This document shows positions 9,270 through 60,894 of a stretch of DNA of 64,000 nt, piece after piece. The stretch's first letter is position 1. Each line of letters starts with the position of its first letter. The notes under the pieces were generated by a model. The model searched no databases. It was given only the letters and a program-made list of their open reading frames with translations, and was not told the origin of the DNA. Origin of the DNA: Halobacteriales archaeon QS_4_62_28 (GTDB lineage: Archaea; Halobacteriota; Halobacteria; Halobacteriales; Haloarculaceae); NCBI GenBank assembly GCA_003021685.1, contig PXRO01000017.1, positions 62,001 to 126,000 of the forward strand, given 5' to 3'. The translations under genes and the position numbers were made by a program.

Positions 9270-10574
9270 ATGACTGACTGGATCGGCGAGACGTTCACGA
9301 GTACGGTCGGCTGGGACCATCTGGTGGACCTCGTCGACATCGGAAACCGCATGGCTGGGAGTGACGGCGAGCGGGCGGCCGCCCAACAGACGCGGGACGC
9401 GCTGTCGGCAGTCGGGGCCCGCGATACCCACCTCGAAACGTTCGACATCCAGGGGTGGGCACGCGGCGAGAGCGAGATCCGCGCCGGCGAGACCACCCAG
9501 GAGTGTATCGCGCTCCCGCGGAGTCCATCGAGCGAGGTGACGGCCGAACTCGTCGACCTGGGATATGGCCTGCCCGAAGACTTCGAGGACGCCGATTTGA
9601 CAGGAAAGATCGTCGTGGCAGACAGTTACGTCCCCGACTGGTTCGACCGGTACATCCACCGGCGCGAGAAGTACTACCGGGCGGTCGAAGCGGGAGCGGC
9701 GGCGTTCGTTTACCGGAACCACGTCGAAGGCTGTCTCGCACCGACCGGCAGCGTCGGGACCGAGGACGACCCTATCGGCGCGATACCGGCCGTCGGCGTC
9801 TCCAGGGAGGTCGGCGCTCGCCTCGTCCGGCGCTTCGAGGGGGAGATCGCCACCGTCGCAGTCGAGGCAGACGTTCACGACGCGACGAGCCAGAACGTCC
9901 ACGCCGACCTGGGACCGGACACCGACGAGGTGGTCTTGCTGACCAGTCACGTCGACGCTCACGACATCGCCGAGGGCGCGGCCGACAACGGGGCCGGCAC
10001 GGCCGTGGTCGTCGAGGTCGCGAACGCACTCGCCCGGCGCGAGGGCGACCTGGACACCCGCGTCCACATCGTCGTCTACGGGGCCGAGGAGGTCGGCCTC
10101 GTCGGGTCGAACCACGACGCCGACCAGCGAGACCACGACACGATCAAGGCCATCGTCAACAACGACGGGGTGGTCCGTGGCCGAACACTCGAGTGTCACA
10201 CCCACGGGTTCGACGCGCTGGCGACTACCGCCACGGACGTGGCCGAGACGTTCGACCACCCGGTGGAGGCGACACCGCGTCTGGGCCCCCACAGCGACCA
10301 CTGGCCCTACGTCAAATGGGGTGTCCCCGGTTATCACGTCAGATCAGACACGGCCTCGGAGGGCCGAGGGTGGGGCCACACCCGCGCCGATACGCTCGAC
10401 AAACTCGAAAGCCGCAATCTGCGTGAACAGGCGGTACTGTTGACAGAACTGGTCGTCTCACTCGCAGACGAGAGCGTCGAGGTCACCCATCGAGACCCCG
10501 ACGACATCGCCGACCAACTCGAAGACGAAGCGCTCGCCGAGGGGATGCGAGTCATCGGCGACTGGCCGTACTGA
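9270..10574 (+). CDS. M28-family zinc aminopeptidase
   Basis: Predicted di-zinc exopeptidase (434 aa) of the M28 family. Metal and catalytic residues are visible in order: H227 and D229 in SHVDAHD, the Asp of GAADNGAG, the Glu pair in YGAEEVGLVGS, NNDGVV, and a late His in LGPHSDHWPYV. A protease-associated-like segment (residues about 90-190) precedes the catalytic core. There is no signal peptide, so it is probably cytosolic. The ATG at 10 codons into the open frame (MTDWIGETF) was chosen. The TGA stop shares its last base with palindromic element A5. Confidence 0.88.
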   Translation: MTDWIGETFTSTVGWDHLVDLVDIGNRMAGSDGERAAAQQTRDALSAVGARDTHLETFDIQGWARGESEIRAGETTQECIALPRSPSSEVTAELVDLGYGLPEDFEDADLTGKIVVADSYVPDWFDRYIHRREKYYRAVEAGAAAFVYRNHVEGCLAPTGSVGTEDDPIGAIPAVGVSREVGARLVRRFEGEIATVAVEADVHDATSQNVHADLGPDTDEVVLLTSHVDAHDIAEGAADNGAGTAVVVEVANALARREGDLDTRVHIVVYGAEEVGLVGSNHDADQRDHDTIKAIVNNDGVVRGRTLECHTHGFDALATTATDVAETFDHPVEATPRLGPHSDHWPYVKWGVPGYHVRSDTASEGRGWGHTRADTLDKLESRNLREQAVLLTELVVSLADESVEVTHRDPDDIADQLEDEALAEGMRVIGDWPY

Positions 10575-10651
10575 TACTATCGACTGTCAGTCTGTGAACG
10601 ATTTCGACACCCGGGTGTCGGATATCGCCACGTCGTCACAGCCGACAGTAC
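10574..10651 (-). repeat. palindromic element A5 (family A, reversed, diverged)
   Basis: 78-bp nested palindrome between convergent genes. Outer arms are ATACTATCGACTG and, at the right end, CAGCCGACAGTA; the inner palindrome is CGACACCCGGGTGTCG. It aligns with the reverse complement of A1 (shared ACGATTTCG-core and TCTGTGAACG-like spacer). Its first A is the last base of the M28 peptidase TGA stop. Confidence 0.75.
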
Positions 10652-13382: not shown

Positions 13383-14051
13383 ATGACTGCCGATGGCCAC
13401 GATGGCCGGAGCCACGCCGAGCGCGAGTCGCCGGTCGGGAAACCCGTCATCCGCGGAGACCCATCACTGACCGGGCAACACGCCGAGGAGGCCGTCGAAT
13501 TCGATCCCGACGACTCCGAGAGTCTCGAACTCGCGGCCCGGACGGTACGGGCGTTCTCCGAAAACACCGCCGGGGCTGACGACAACGTCTACATGCTACG
13601 GGGCGCAGCGGCGTGTGCCGCACTCGTTCGGGGCGAAGGATCGTACAAGGCTGCTGCCGAACGGGCCGGCGGGGACGCGACAGTCTCGTTTATTCGCAAA
13701 TGGTCCCGCGTGCACGACCTCCCGCGGTCGATCCGCCGACACGTCGCGATGGGCCACATCGCGCCGACCGCCGCCAAGCACATCGCCCGCGTCGCCGGCG
13801 AGGCCCGCCTCCAGTTGGCCTGGGCGATCCTGGACCACGACATGACGGTCCGACAGGTCCGGTCGGTCGCCAGCGATGTCAACGACGGCCAGTCGGTCGC
13901 ACGCACACTCGAAACGGAGGGGATCACGCTGGGCGAACTCACGGTAGAACTCGATCCGGTCGTGTACCGGGAACTGCGCCGCCGGGCAGCCATCGACGGC
14001 GAATCACCCGGCGACCTGGTCAGCGAACTGCTCGACGGACGACTGGAGTGA
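13383..14051 (+). CDS. haloarchaeal HTH protein with ParB/KorB-like helical domain
   Basis: 222-residue soluble protein. Residues about 75-165 (RGEGSYKAAAERAGG, WSRVHDLPRSIRRHV, HIAPTAAKHIARVAG, MTVRQVRSV) resemble the DNA-binding helical domain of ParB/KorB proteins. The C-terminal piece (YRELRRRAAIDGESPGDL) resembles a short ribbon-helix or HTH tail. There is no ParB CTPase box, so it is more likely a regulator than a partition protein. The ATG at 13383 follows a TATA-like CTTTTATCAG by about 27 nt. I associate it with a haloarchaea-only DUF. Its TGA stop overlaps element A1. Confidence 0.7.
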   Translation: MTADGHDGRSHAERESPVGKPVIRGDPSLTGQHAEEAVEFDPDDSESLELAARTVRAFSENTAGADDNVYMLRGAAACAALVRGEGSYKAAAERAGGDATVSFIRKWSRVHDLPRSIRRHVAMGHIAPTAAKHIARVAGEARLQLAWAILDHDMTVRQVRSVASDVNDGQSVARTLETEGITLGELTVELDPVVYRELRRRAAIDGESPGDLVSELLDGRLE

Positions 14052-14130
14052 TACTGTCGGACGTAACTATCTGAAGATTCTCGCCACCCCGGGGTGGCGA
14101 AATCCGTCGCGGACTTCCGTCCGACAGTAT
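14051..14130 (+). repeat. palindromic element A1 (family A)
   Basis: 80 bp. The outer arms ATACTGTCGGAC and GTCCGACAGTAT are a perfect 12-bp inverted repeat, and the centre CGCCACCCCGGGGTGGCG is a perfect 18-bp palindrome. It fills the gap between two convergent genes: its first base is the last base of one TGA stop, and it ends 2 bp before the TAG of the other. Confidence 0.9.
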
Positions 14131-14132
14131 GA

Positions 14133-14870
14133 CTACGACGTTTCCTCGGCTTCGTACGTGACCTGTACCTGGGCGGTGACGGTCACCGGGCCGCTCTCGA
14201 TGGTCGTACTCCCGCCGTCACCGGCGGCCGCGGTCGCCTGTGCCTCGTAGGGTCGGTAGCCCCGTTCGACGGTCGTGACCGTTCGAACGCCGGTAACCGT
14301 CAGGTTCGCGCGGTCAGCGATGGTGTCGGCTTTCGTCCGCGCCCGATCAACTGCGTTCTGCAGTGCCTGCTCTTCGAGTTCGTCGCGGCGCTCGCCAGAG
14401 ATCGTGAAGCGAACATCGTCGACATCGTTCGCGCCGTTCTGGACGGCCGTATCGATCACTGTCCCTGCGTTGTCCGTGTCGTTGATCGTGACCTCGAAGG
14501 TCTGGCGGGCGACGTACGTCGGTTCTGCGTCGGGGTTCTCGCGGGACCGGCGGTGATCCTGGCCGATGTCGTACCCGCTCGTCGTCACCTGTGCGCCCTC
14601 GATTTCCGAGAGCGCGTCACGGAGTTGTGTGACGTTCTCTGCGAGGCGCTGGCGGGCAGTCGCTGCGTCGGAACCACTGGTTCGGACGCCGAGACGGACC
14701 ACCGCCTGATTCGGCTGGGCGTCGACGGCACCACTGCCGGCCACTTCGACGGTTCGATTGGTCGTTGTCGGGGCTGTACTGCTGCTATCACCGGCACCGA
14801 GCGCACCTGTGCATCCACTGAGGAGGACAAGTGTCGCGATGACGGCAATCAAAGGGAGTGATCGTCGCAT
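14133..14870 (-). CDS. SIMPL-domain (DUF541) lipoprotein
   Basis: 245-residue secreted lipoprotein: signal peptide MRRSLPLIAVIATLVLLSGC with the lipobox Cys at residue 20. The remainder is a SIMPL/DUF541 domain recognisable from VEVAGSGAVDAQPNQAVVRL, the heptad-like LAENVTQLRDAL helix, YVARQTFEVTI, and the repeated-helix stretch ALQNAVDRARTKADTIA. The family resembles periplasmic oxidative-stress proteins, but its biochemical role is unknown. Probably anchored outside the cell membrane. Convergent with the ParB-like gene across element A1. Confidence 0.85.
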   Translation of the reverse strand: MRRSLPLIAVIATLVLLSGCTGALGAGDSSSTAPTTTNRTVEVAGSGAVDAQPNQAVVRLGVRTSGSDAATARQRLAENVTQLRDALSEIEGAQVTTSGYDIGQDHRRSRENPDAEPTYVARQTFEVTINDTDNAGTVIDTAVQNGANDVDDVRFTISGERRDELEEQALQNAVDRARTKADTIADRANLTVTGVRTVTTVERGYRPYEAQATAAAGDGGSTTIESGPVTVTAQVQVTYEAEETS

Positions 14871-17700: not shown

Positions 17701-17763
17701 CTGCCGAAGATTCTCGCCACCCCAGGGTGGCGAAATCCGTCACGGACTTCCGTCCGACAGTAT
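17699..17763 (+). repeat. palindromic element A2 (family A, internally deleted)
   Basis: About 65 bp. It keeps the start ACTGCCG, the core CGCCACCCCAGGGTGGCG and the right arm GTCCGACAGTAT. The roughly 15 bp between the left arm and GAAGATTCTC found in A1 are missing. It marks the end of the ATPase remnant. Confidence 0.75.
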
Positions 17764-18568: not shown

Positions 18569-18648
18569 ATACTGCCGGCTATAACTGTTTCAAGATATTC
18601 GCGACCCCGGGGTCGAGAAATTCTTCACAGACTTACAGCTGGCAGTAT
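18569..18648 (+). repeat. palindromic element A3 (family A, A/B intermediate)
   Basis: 80 bp. The outer arms ATACTGCCGGCT and AGCTGGCAGTAT pair imperfectly, and the core CGACCCCGGGGTCG is a perfect palindrome. The right half contains CACAGACTTACAG, which is like family B rather than A, so it links the two families. It lies in the 271-bp gap between engB and the next gene, with no stop codon of a supported gene at its edge. Confidence 0.85.
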
Positions 18649-20373: not shown

Positions 20374-20455
20374 TATACCGGTAGACGGAACGTTTTACAT
20401 CCCAGCCGTCACGGTCCCCGGTCTGAATGTATCGCTGCGTCCGTCCACCGGTATA
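20374..20455 (-). repeat. palindromic element C1 (family C)
   Basis: 82 bp. The ends TATACCGGTAGACG and CGTCCACCGGTATA are inverted repeats (one mismatch). Its reverse complement aligns along most of its length with C2 at 60.7 kb (shared CAGCGATACAT, GACCGTGAC and GATGTA blocks). It ends 12 bp before the UspA stop; those 12 bp begin, read from the UspA gene, TGATACTGT, like the left edge of a family-A element. Confidence 0.8.
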
Positions 20456-21006: not shown

Positions 21007-21453
21007 ATGAACATCGACCTCGTGCTCGCGCCGGTCGACGGCTCGTCACAGTCGGAGCAAGCGGCCGGGTACGCCCTCGCTCTTGCCGACGCGTACGACG
21101 CCGATCTGCATCTCCTCTTCGTGCTCGACGAGACGCTCGTCCGGGGGATCGAGGCGGGGGACGTTTCGGCCGATGCGGTCGCAGACGAACAACACGAGTT
21201 CGCGGGTAAAGTGCGTGATCGCCTCGACGAGCGGGGTCACGACGCTGGCCTGAACCACTCGACTGCGGCGGGGTTCTCACCCTCTCGGCTCCGCCAGTCA
21301 CCCGGCAGCGTCATCCTCGATGTCGCCGAAGCGGTGGACGCGGACTTCCTCGTCGTCCCGCGCGAACCCGGCAGTGGCGAACCAGCAAAAGCGATCGGCC
21401 GCGCGGCGCTGTACGTCATCGAGTACGCCAGTCAGCCGGTCCTATCAGTCTGA
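21007..21453 (+). CDS. universal stress protein lacking the ATP-binding signature
   Basis: 148-residue Usp domain (MNIDLVLAPVDGSSQSEQAA, ending ASQPVLSV). Where ATP-binding Usp proteins carry G-x2-G-x9-G-S, this one reads PREPGSGEPAKAIGRAA, so it probably does not bind ATP in the usual way. It is divergent from the ATP-binding Usp gene. The TGA stop shares its last base with the split palindromic element B4, directly before the inserted integrative element. Confidence 0.85.
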   Translation: MNIDLVLAPVDGSSQSEQAAGYALALADAYDADLHLLFVLDETLVRGIEAGDVSADAVADEQHEFAGKVRDRLDERGHDAGLNHSTAAGFSPSRLRQSPGSVILDVAEAVDADFLVVPREPGSGEPAKAIGRAALYVIEYASQPVLSV

Positions 21454-21513
21454 TAGTGATTGCTGTACGTCTGTGCGGGATCGATCGCACGACAGCGTGT
21501 GACCGACCCGGTA
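21453..21513 (-). repeat. palindromic element B4, left part (interrupted copy)
   Basis: These 61 bp match positions 1-61 of the reverse complement of element B1 with roughly ten substitutions (ATAGTGATTGCTGTACGTCT, then GATCGATCGCACGAC and GACCGACCCGGTA). Similarity stops abruptly at 21513. The missing end (TACACCAGTCACTAC) is found at 23303-23317, on the other side of the integrative element. Confidence 0.7.
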
Positions 21514-21603
21514 TATACGGAAACCCATTCCCCCCATATCAAAGTTAGATTCGAGACGAGCCTCTTCATTTGCACGCCAGGAGGTGCATTCTCACCCGCA
21601 GAA

Positions 21604-21613
21604 TTGATATACA
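21604..21613 (+). promoter_or_regulatory. TATA box of the HNH nuclease gene
   Basis: TTGATATACA lies 21-30 nt before the ATG at 21634, the spacing expected for a leaderless archaeal transcript. This supports the chosen start. Confidence 0.5.
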
Positions 21614-21633
21614 ATCGATGCAACAAGAATTCT

Positions 21634-22056
21634 ATGAAGAGAGAGTATCCCAGTAATTGGGATTCTCGTCGCAAAAAAGTCTACAGACGAGATGGTTATA
21701 CCTGTCAAAACTGTGGTGCGAAAGGGGGTCCTAAGGGGAACACGGAGTTACATGCTCATCATATTGTTCCGAAAAGTAAAGGAGGGACTCACGAAACCAG
21801 TAACCTCCAAACAGTCTGTAGTGAGTGTCACAACGCGATTCATGAGGATTCTATTGCTCCAACGGGACAATATAGGTCAGGAGATTCAACTGAGGATGAA
21901 GCCTCTTCACTGCTCGTATTTGGGATTGTTATAGGCACTCTTCTCGTGGCCTTATTCGCGGACAATTGGGGCTTTCTTGGGTTCTTGGCAGGGGTACTCC
22001 TTCTTTTTATATTGACGGTTGCTCTTACTATTGTATGGTCCGCCGTTGCTGATTAG
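21634..22056 (+). CDS. HNH endonuclease with two C-terminal transmembrane segments
   Basis: 140-residue protein. Residues 13-75 form an HNH nuclease fold: zinc pairs C24/C27 (CQNC) and C62/C65 (CSEC), the core HAHHIVPKSKGG at 40-51, N57, and H66/H70. After an acidic linker come two hydrophobic segments, about 93-109 and 113-138, so the nuclease would be tethered to the membrane with the catalytic domain presumably inside. It is the only cargo gene of the small integrative element. The lysine-rich N-terminus (MKREYPSNWDSRRKKVYRRD) could bind DNA. Start set by the TATA box. Confidence 0.85.
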   Translation: MKREYPSNWDSRRKKVYRRDGYTCQNCGAKGGPKGNTELHAHHIVPKSKGGTHETSNLQTVCSECHNAIHEDSIAPTGQYRSGDSTEDEASSLLVFGIVIGTLLVALFADNWGFLGFLAGVLLLFILTVALTIVWSAVAD

Positions 22057-36035: not shown

Positions 36036-36104
36036 GCTTGCTGTACGTTCGCCAGTACCGAAAGTCTCCCGTAGCGACCAGTATCCCAGAACCGGTTGCT
36101 GCAT

Positions 36105-36128
36105 ACATCGGTGGACGTACCGTTTGAT
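36105..36128 (-). repeat. half element C4 next to B1
   Basis: ACATCGGTGGACGTACCGTT matches one arm of family C (in C2: ATCGGTGGACACACCGTTTG on the opposite strand). The other half is absent and B1 starts at its inner end, as if B1 had inserted into or replaced part of a C element. Confidence 0.45.
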
Positions 36129-36208
36129 AGTGACTGTTGTAACTGATTACCGGATCGGTCGCACGTCGTCGTGCGATCAATCCCGTACAGACTTACAACA
36201 GTCACTAT
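36127..36208 (+). repeat. palindromic element B1 (family B)
   Basis: 82 bp with perfect 16-bp terminal inverted repeats (ATAGTGACTGTTGTAA / TTACAACAGTCACTAT) and the central hairpin TCGCACGTCGTCGTGCGA. Identical to B3 and one base different from B2. It sits between divergent genes, in the same orientation as B2 two kilobases away. Confidence 0.95.
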
Positions 36209-38205: not shown

Positions 38206-38287
38206 ATAGTGACTGTTGTAACTGATTACCGGATTGGTCGCACGTCGTCGTGCGATCAATCCCGTACAGACTTACAACAGTCACTAT
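38206..38287 (+). repeat. palindromic element B2 (family B)
   Basis: 82 bp, identical to B1 and B3 except GATTGG for GATCGG. It lies between the divergent hydrolase and lipoprotein genes. B1 and B2 are direct repeats bracketing 36209-38205. Confidence 0.95.
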
Positions 38288-49785: not shown

Positions 49786-51099
49786 ATGAGTAACGAGGAC
49801 GCCCAGGCCGCGGCCGGGACGCCGGAGGGACAGGGCCCAGTCGAAATCGACGAGGAGATGGCTCGCCACATGGCGAACAAGCGCGAGGAACTGTTCGAGA
49901 AGTTCGAGATCCGCGACGAGTTCCCTCCGGAGGTCATCGAAGAGGCCAAAGAGCGGACGACTGGTGTCCAGCAAGAAATCGCCGACGAGATCGACGAGCG
50001 ACGAGATCTACGTGATCTGACGACGTGGACGACCGACCCGATCGACGCCCAGGACTTCGACGATGCGCTGTCAATCGAGGAACGAAACGAGGAGTACGTC
50101 CTGTGGGTTCACATCGCCGACGTAACCCACTACGTCAATCCGGACACGGCGATGTGGGACGAGGCCGTCGAACGCGGGAACACGGTGTACCTGCCGGGCT
50201 ACACCATCCACATGCTGCCCCCGATTCTCGCCGAGACGGTGTGTTCGCTCGTGCCCAACGAGGACCGACTGGCCCATACCGTCGAGATGCACCTCGACAA
50301 GGAGAACCTGGGCTACGAGACCATCGAGATTTACAAGTCCGTCATCGAGAGCGACGCCCGCCTCACCTACACGGAGGCCGAACGACTACTCGACGACCCA
50401 GAGACCGCCGAGGACCTGCTGGAGGACCAGCGCGTCGACCTCGCAGCGAAGAACGAACTGGTGTGGCAACTCGCGGATCGGATGCACGAACAGCGCAAGG
50501 AGGACGGCTCGCTCGTCCTCAACCCGAGTCGGGACCGCGCACACACCATCATCGAGGAGTGCATGCTCAAGGCCAACAAGGCCGTCACCCACGAACTCAT
50601 GTGGGACCGCGGCGTCGAGGCGATGTACCGGGTCCATCCCCAGCCAAGCCCCGAGGAGTGGGACGAGGCACTCGTCGAGATTCAGGAACTCGACGGCGTC
50701 TCCATCCCGGGATCGACCTGGGACGACCCGCGGAAGGCGGTCAACGCCACGCTCGAACAGGCACCGGGTCGGCAACTGGACAAGATCCAGTGGGCCGTGA
50801 TGAAGGTGATGCCCCGTGCGAAGTACATGAACGATCCCTTCGGCGGGCATCACGCGCTCAATTTCGAAATCTACGGCCACTTCACCTCGCCGATCCGTCG
50901 ACTCTCGGACCTGATCAACCACTGGATCGTCTACACGAACGACGTGCCAGAGGACCTCATCGCGCTGTGTGACCAGGCCAGCGACAAACAGAAGGCCGCA
51001 GAGACCTGCGAGCGCGAGTACAAGCAGTTCCTCGAAGAGATCGGTCTCGATCCGTCGGCCGTCAACAACCGCGGTCTCGACATCGTCGATATCGAGTGA
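49786..51099 (+). CDS. RNB-domain exoribonuclease (archaeal RNase R-like)
   Basis: 3'-5' exoribonuclease with essentially only the RNB catalytic domain (437 aa). The four metal-binding aspartates are in DPIDAQDFDDALS (D84, D90, D92, D93), and HFTSPIRRLSDLINH gives the C-terminal catalytic Arg region. The cold-shock and S1 RNA-binding domains of bacterial RNase R are absent, as in haloarchaeal homologues. Likely cytosolic RNA decay. ATG at 49786 chosen. Its TGA stop shares its A with palindromic element B3. Confidence 0.9.
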   Translation: MSNEDAQAAAGTPEGQGPVEIDEEMARHMANKREELFEKFEIRDEFPPEVIEEAKERTTGVQQEIADEIDERRDLRDLTTWTTDPIDAQDFDDALSIEERNEEYVLWVHIADVTHYVNPDTAMWDEAVERGNTVYLPGYTIHMLPPILAETVCSLVPNEDRLAHTVEMHLDKENLGYETIEIYKSVIESDARLTYTEAERLLDDPETAEDLLEDQRVDLAAKNELVWQLADRMHEQRKEDGSLVLNPSRDRAHTIIEECMLKANKAVTHELMWDRGVEAMYRVHPQPSPEEWDEALVEIQELDGVSIPGSTWDDPRKAVNATLEQAPGRQLDKIQWAVMKVMPRAKYMNDPFGGHHALNFEIYGHFTSPIRRLSDLINHWIVYTNDVPEDLIALCDQASDKQKAAETCEREYKQFLEEIGLDPSAVNNRGLDIVDIE

Positions 51100-51180
51100 T
51101 AGTGACTGTTGTAACTGATTACCGGATCGGTCGCACGTCGTCGTGCGATCAATCCCGTACAGACTTACAACAGTCACTAT
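51099..51180 (+). repeat. palindromic element B3 (family B)
   Basis: 82 bp, identical to B1 over its full length. It begins on the last base of the RNB gene's TGA and lies between convergent genes; the facing HxlR stop is 25 bp further on. Confidence 0.95.
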
Positions 51181-51205
51181 GATACACGGCCCGGCCTCGC
51201 TGTCG

Positions 51206-55521: not shown

Positions 55522-55601
55522 ATACTGCCGGACGTAACCTCGTGAAGATATTCGCTACCCCGGGGTGGCGAAATAGTTCACGGACTTCCGTCCGGCAGTA
55601 T
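55522..55601 (-). repeat. palindromic element A4 (family A)
   Basis: 80 bp with perfect arms ATACTGCCGGAC / GTCCGGCAGTAT and core CCACCCCGGGGTAGCG-like palindrome (on the plus strand CGCTACCCCGGGGTGGCG, one mismatch). Its right edge overlaps the vapC TAA stop by one base. The other side faces the upstream region of ubaA. Confidence 0.9.
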
Positions 55602-56008
55602 TAGTCCCAGACCGTGTCCTCAGACGCGAATGCGCTATCATTGCTGACGATAGCCTTCGTGTTCTGCACCCGATGTGTTGCTGTGAGTAACCCGTCGTGC
55701 ATCGTGTACAGGTCGATCTCACTGGCGAACACCGACAGTTCATGCTCTCTAATCGACGCGATCTCGACGGGACCGTTTGTAACGAGCCGGCTGAGCGTCT
55801 CGCGGGGGTCTCCCTGGAGTTTGACCCCAGCAATCACCGCACCGCTCTCGACCTGATAGAGTGCCTCGGCCGCCTGCACGTCTGGGGCTCGGAGTACATC
55901 GATCCCCTGTTCTGCTCGCGTGAACACCTCATCGGCGGCATCGGGAAGCTCGTCAACAAGATACCGCAACAACGCAACAGCATCCACCATGTACGTCGCC
56001 ATCGTCAT
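55601..56008 (-). CDS. VapC-type PIN-domain toxin
   Basis: 135-residue PIN ribonuclease. The acidic metal residues are visible: D9 in YMVDAVALL, E48 in AAEALYQV, D105 in MHDGLLTATHR and D124 in SNDSAFASED. VapC toxins usually cut tRNA or rRNA. Its start overlaps the antitoxin stop by 4 nt. The stop touches element A4. A functional toxin-antitoxin pair is likely as all catalytic residues remain. Confidence 0.87.
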   Translation of the reverse strand: MTMATYMVDAVALLRYLVDELPDAADEVFTRAEQGIDVLRAPDVQAAEALYQVESGAVIAGVKLQGDPRETLSRLVTNGPVEIASIREHELSVFASEIDLYTMHDGLLTATHRVQNTKAIVSNDSAFASEDTVWD

Positions 56009-60726: not shown

Positions 60727-60810
60727 TACACCGGTGGACGTATACAGCGATACATCTAACCCGGAGACCGTGACAGCCGAGATGTATCAAACGGTGTGTC
60801 CACCGATATA
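60727..60810 (+). repeat. palindromic element C2 (family C)
   Basis: 84 bp with ends TACACCGGTGGACG and TGTCCACCGATATA and an inner inverted pair GATACATCT/GAGATGTATC. It aligns with the reverse complement of C1. Located between the DUF368 gene and a convergent lipoprotein gene, 51 bp after the former's stop. Confidence 0.8.
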
Positions 60811-60894
60811 TGCCGAAAACTATCTTAAAATCAGGACGTGAAGCACTCAAACACGCGATCCGAGCGACACCCTGAAATCAGCAACGTGTTACGA

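Follow-up and report, generated by a model that had tools for sequence, protein, structure and literature searches.

Insertion sequences in the IS1031 group (IS5 family) are reported to use TNA as their target and to generate an exact 3-bp direct repeat, including upon insertion at TGA (PMC12016507). In the haloarchaeon Haloquadratum walsbyi, the SMR-A and SMR-B elements were reported to lack a target duplication, and SMR-A to target PATE palindromes (PMC3119063). The palindromic elements examined here, designated A-type and B-type, share the 3-bp TNA duplication with IS1031, whereas their ends (TACTG, TAGTG or TACGG) differ from the GAACCTG... ends of that group (PMC12016507), and IS1031-type terminal repeats are absent from them. 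They are similar to SMR-A/B (80-110 bp, haloarchaeal, with terminal inverted repeats, high in copy number, parentless and nested in repeats; PMC3119063), but duplicate TNA and favour gene ends. With miniature inverted-repeat transposable elements (MITEs; reviewed in PMC10969869), they have in common a short non-coding sequence, inverted ends, target-site duplication and intergenic bias, although the elements here consist almost wholly of a palindrome.

REP/REPIN sequences and their RAYT proteins provide another point of comparison. REPINs are not known to make a target duplication, in contrast to the elements here, which duplicate TNA. The two are alike in being palindromic and extragenic, with GTAA/GTAG tags inside the arms (PMC3733652). 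The literature searched contained no account of target-site duplication restoring a stop codon, and nothing came up either on extragenic palindromes of haloarchaea or on insertions into stop codons that duplicate 3 bp.

Our analysis started from a 64,000-nucleotide stretch (hereafter, the window; G000:C17:62001-126000) of a 2.64-Mb haloarchaeal draft genome, whose family is represented by 146 genomes, and covered regions surrounding the search hits as well as evenly spaced ones. Five copies in the window abut stop codons, which agrees with the preliminary description of this DNA. A1 is a 78-bp palindromic mobile element (TACTGTCGGACG...CGTCCGACAGTA, positions 14052-14129, assigned to no strand) docked on the plus-strand TGA at 14049-14051, which is the stop of the DUF7119/ParB-HTH gene 13383-14051 and also the first copy of the duplication. 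The second, distal TGA (14130-14132, plus strand) is directly followed by the stop TAG (reading CTA, 14133-14135) of a facing SIMPL gene, the same TAG that had been noted beyond the other end of A1. A5 (10575-10650), a degraded A-type copy, is docked on the TGA (10572-10574) of an M28 peptidase gene, and its distal duplicate has decayed to CGA. Among the B-type copies, B3 (51100-51179) is docked on the TGA (51097-51099) of a gene for an RNB-domain protein, with TGA again at 51180-51182, and B4 (21454-21521), whose right end has degraded, is docked on the TGA (21451-21453) of a Usp gene. No GNAT stop was found inside the far end of B4, where one had been described; instead, an ORF possibly encoding an HNH-type nuclease (21460-22056) starts within the degraded element. 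A4 (55523-55600) is an A-type copy with a TTA duplication. Its right-hand TTA (55601-55603) serves, on the minus strand, as the TAA stop of gene 55601-56008. This gene was earlier called vapC; the stop is indeed TAA, but the 135-aa product has no Pfam match and the name rests on its neighbour, a MazE-type antitoxin gene.

Of the remaining copies, A3, B1 and B2 are not docked. A2 (17704-17762) is an A-type half element that has lost its left end and has TGA at the right, and A3 (18570-18647) is an intergenic A-type copy with TGA on both sides that sits on no called gene's stop. Two undocked B-type copies are B1 (36128-36207), which has a TGA duplication and adjoins a copy of a third repeat family, C, and B2 (38207-38286), which has a TCA duplication and lies between divergent genes. 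Family C (TATACCGGTGGACGTA...GCCGTCACGGTC...), which was only glimpsed, occurs in the window at 20396-20455, 36096-36129 and 60727-60818 and also at the loci L008, L030 and L036; its repeats are targets themselves, with A or B copies and their TNA duplications inside or adjoining them. At another locus (G000:C50:59247-59402), an A and a B element are directly joined, and the B element starts at the TGA bordering A.

By reading 72 distinct copies with their flanks, the A-type mobile unit was defined as TACTG...CAGTA (78 bp) and the B-type unit as TAGTG...CACTA (80 bp), with at least 40 A-type and about 30 B-type copies recovered by nucleotide searches. Most of the 72 are flanked by the same TNA on each side (TGA/TGA, TCA/TCA, TAA/TAA or TTA/TTA), matching at both borders in 48 of them, which identifies a 3-bp target-site duplication of TNA, mostly TGA or TCA. 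The preliminary description had stated that the first base of an element is the last base of the neighbouring stop. That register is real, yet the shared base belongs to the duplicated TNA, outside the mobile unit: the element was earlier taken to start at the A of the duplication, one base too soon, hence the apparent overlap. The same duplication accompanies insertions into intergenic DNA and other repeats, as well as the rare ones within genes.

As a guard against ascertainment by intact duplications, a census of A-type copies was made with a covariance model built from 25 copies of the palindrome, which uses neither flanks, duplication nor stops. It yielded 101 usable genomic places; its E-values are rough, and the matches used were mostly strong. 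Matching TNA was present at both borders in 48 of the 101, and at least one TNA flank in 91. In this census, 34 copies directly abut a stop codon (distance zero), and no other distance from 1 to 40 bp is represented by more than two. Such a peak at zero had been anticipated, together with the assertion that chance placement would not give this register. The latter holds as well, since stops make up only 51 of the 429 non-coding TNA sites in the window (12%) compared with 34 of 101 docked copies genome-wide (binomial P=9e-9). Genes were called by a codon-usage script trained on the window, on sequence from which the elements had been excised to guard against truncation artefacts; errors in the calls would blur docking but could not produce a peak at zero. 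In stretches of a relative (G003) totalling 757 kb, taken at even steps and chosen regardless of elements, 20 of 34 copies are on stops. Between one-third and one-half of the copies lie exactly on gene ends, largely because the TNA duplication leaves a TGA or TAA stop intact when a copy lands in it. In the 15 docked copies whose duplicates differ, the distal duplicate has drifted, and the one next to the gene is the stop, the latter point being given by the definition of docking.

TNA is present at approximately 80% of stop codons. On one rival reading, docking is a compositional artefact, TNA being common at stops. Given the intergenic interval in which each copy lies, 20 of the 29 cases of docking are expected, but the 29 observed exceed the expected 20.1 significantly (P=3e-4), and stops are occupied more often than TNA sites 1-30 bp further on (flank-matched Mantel-Haenszel odds ratio 3.55, P=0.001), which makes composition on its own a highly improbable explanation.

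The origin of the docked stops could be examined at 14 loci at which one relative carries the element and another an empty allele (stretches of three relatives, flanks 87-99% and mostly 90-99% identical). Presence or absence of the elements differs between close relatives, and they are therefore mobile. Empty alleles measure -3, that is, the element and one TNA copy are absent, except for one of -2 and one of -6, the latter coming from one of two comparisons of that locus. Examples of filled and empty alleles are CCCGACTGA[79]TGAGGCC versus CCCGACTGAGGCC and GGCCGTCA[80]TCAGTCG versus GGCCGTCAGTCG. Six of the 14 loci are stop codons, and in all six the stop is already present in the empty allele; the TGA stop of the A1 gene is likewise found in three relatives without A1 (G001-G003). 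The stop is thus older than the insertion and is regenerated by the duplication. The possibility that insertion creates the stop, for which a comparison with empty sites had been proposed, was rejected accordingly; moreover, where the duplicated TGA is in frame, it can only have been a stop already. Copies shared between relatives are docked in 12 of 19 cases and polymorphic copies in 6 of 14, and this difference between older and younger copies is not significant (P=0.30).

What the elements recognise was examined from insertions off stops, in which TSA is preceded by C and followed by G, with a weaker G and W further out, giving the consensus GWC-TSA-GWC. A target matrix trained on these non-stop insertions alone separates occupied from free stops (P=1.6e-7), and the average target score of stops is higher than that of other non-coding TNA sites; acidic C-terminal codons (GAC/GAG) of these proteins often contribute part of the preferred flank. 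The earlier suggestion that the elements insert at stop codons is therefore right as to mobility and frequent landing in stops, whereas the target proper is TNA, preferably GWC-TSA-GWC, rather than the stop as such. If this sequence rule is true, matched GACTGAGAC sites should be used equally, whether they form an in-frame stop, lie out of frame or belong to non-coding DNA.

In the unbiased G003 stretches, 20 of 536 TNA sites at stops are occupied, compared with 1 of 235 sites 1-30 bp past a stop, 3 of 1197 on the promoter side, 6 of 2301 in other intergenic DNA and 4 of 12685 in coding sequence, or 3.7% at stops versus 0.26% at other intergenic TNA. Coding sites are the majority (about 12,700) and yet hold only 4 of the 34 copies, one of these being a spurious palindrome. 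In the pooled analysis, which did not include the G002 stretches (most G002 copies have orthologues in G001), adjustment for target score left stops with a 7.3-fold excess over other intergenic sites (exp(1.99 +/- 0.27)) and a 2.7-fold excess over the next 30 bp (exp(0.99 +/- 0.38)); in the first dataset alone, the adjusted excess over the flank was not significant, with a bootstrap interval that includes 0.

This residual odds ratio of 2.7, together with the six of 14 polymorphic insertions already on stops and the presence of different element families on the same stop in different species, could point to an integration machinery that actively recognises stop codons, or translating or terminating complexes, beyond the DNA sequence. 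We regard such recognition as quite unlikely, because a target learned off stops predicts which stops are occupied, the best-scoring sites are used almost equally at stops (20%) and just past them (16%), and the same excess would arise if insertions at +10 to +30 were purged for disrupting the T-rich terminators of archaea, as they may be.

A stop with different families or orientations was seen at L153:13849-13926 and the orthologous L137 and L138 sites, where each relative carries its own form (TACGGAAGG..., TACTACCGGCTG... and TACTGCCGGCTG...), which suggests that this site was hit more than once or that one element replaced another there.

The preliminary description also raised the possibility that the elements are 3'-end signals under selection. 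According to this explanation, they would be held at stops as bidirectional terminators or RNA-stabilising hairpins, in keeping with their enrichment at gene 3' ends, the residual 2.7-fold stop excess and the strong palindromes. The arms are complementary and show compensatory changes, by which the palindrome itself is seen to be maintained, but such upkeep fits a transposition substrate and arm-to-arm correction as well as an RNA hairpin. On the other hand, the orientation of docked elements relative to the gene is 15:15, occupancy is alike at convergent and tandem stops (4.3% versus 3.6%), and A1, the copy inspected in this respect, contains no terminator-like site and has no T-run after its stem. 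In addition, many copies are polymorphic for presence or absence between close relatives, nested and intergenic copies carry the same ends and duplication, and a terminator role alone would not predict the exact zero register, which the duplication does. With even balance of orientation, no convergent preference, no A1 terminator-like site and turnover of copies, selection for a 3'-end signal gained no positive support and appears very unlikely as the cause of docking.

Being short (78-80 bp) and non-coding, with terminal inverted repeats, target-site duplications and empty sites, the A and B elements share these features with MITEs. They are very probably non-autonomous palindromic transposable elements of a MITE-like kind, inserting at TNA (consensus GWC-TSA-GWC) and duplicating its three bases. 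A transposase acting in trans would make a 3-bp staggered cut at TNA. At a TGA or TAA stop, the gene would still be terminated by the left copy, and the old 3' flank would still be preceded by the right one, so that no protein would be changed and no 3' signal interrupted, and insertions elsewhere in genes or promoters would be purged by selection. The target rule combined with purging would account for most of the docking, and we think that the remaining 2.7-fold stop excess arises because insertions shortly beyond the stop damage native 3' signals. Purging alone may nevertheless be insufficient for everything, given this remainder and the recent polymorphic insertions, 6 of 14, that are already docked. 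Integration might be actively guided to gene ends, for instance by transcription or translation termination, on top of the GWCTSAGWC preference; this appears improbable, but if true, a mobile element would have evolved a truly harmless landing site, namely a stop codon that it rebuilds itself.

With regard to a parent of these MITE-like elements, the DDE_Tnp_1 genes of four genomes (PF01609, PF13586) yielded no transposase whose terminal repeats match, and approximately 1.2 Mb of sampled relatives yielded no parent insertion sequence (inverted ends 100-4000 bp apart with a TNA duplication). The insertion sequences with readable borders were rejected as parents, having different ends and 8-9 bp duplications. 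One insertion sequence with GAGGGTGTCATAGAAC ends (L218:1045-3153) lies apparently within a palindromic element (TACGGTTTATTGT...).

Covariance-model relatives were detected in 76 of the 243 Halobacteriales genomes tested and in 30 of 77 genera, and the elements are thus relevant to gene 3' ends across haloarchaea. Some genomes, such as G267 and G007, contain numerous copies that are almost identical. The odd register is reduced to a simple rule, by which a transposon can enter the end of a gene without cost if the target that it duplicates may be a stop, and this rule predicts where such elements accumulate. Moreover, the pairs of filled and empty alleles are clean material for asking whether expression changes when a gene's 3' end carries an 80-bp hairpin. 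A further difference between alleles concerns the hairpin tip: in two relatives carrying one element on one stop codon (L139:4395-4473 and L140:4548-4626), the 11-bp central loop is exactly inverted (TACTCCGTGGC versus GCCACGGAGTA), as if the tip of the hairpin had been flipped.
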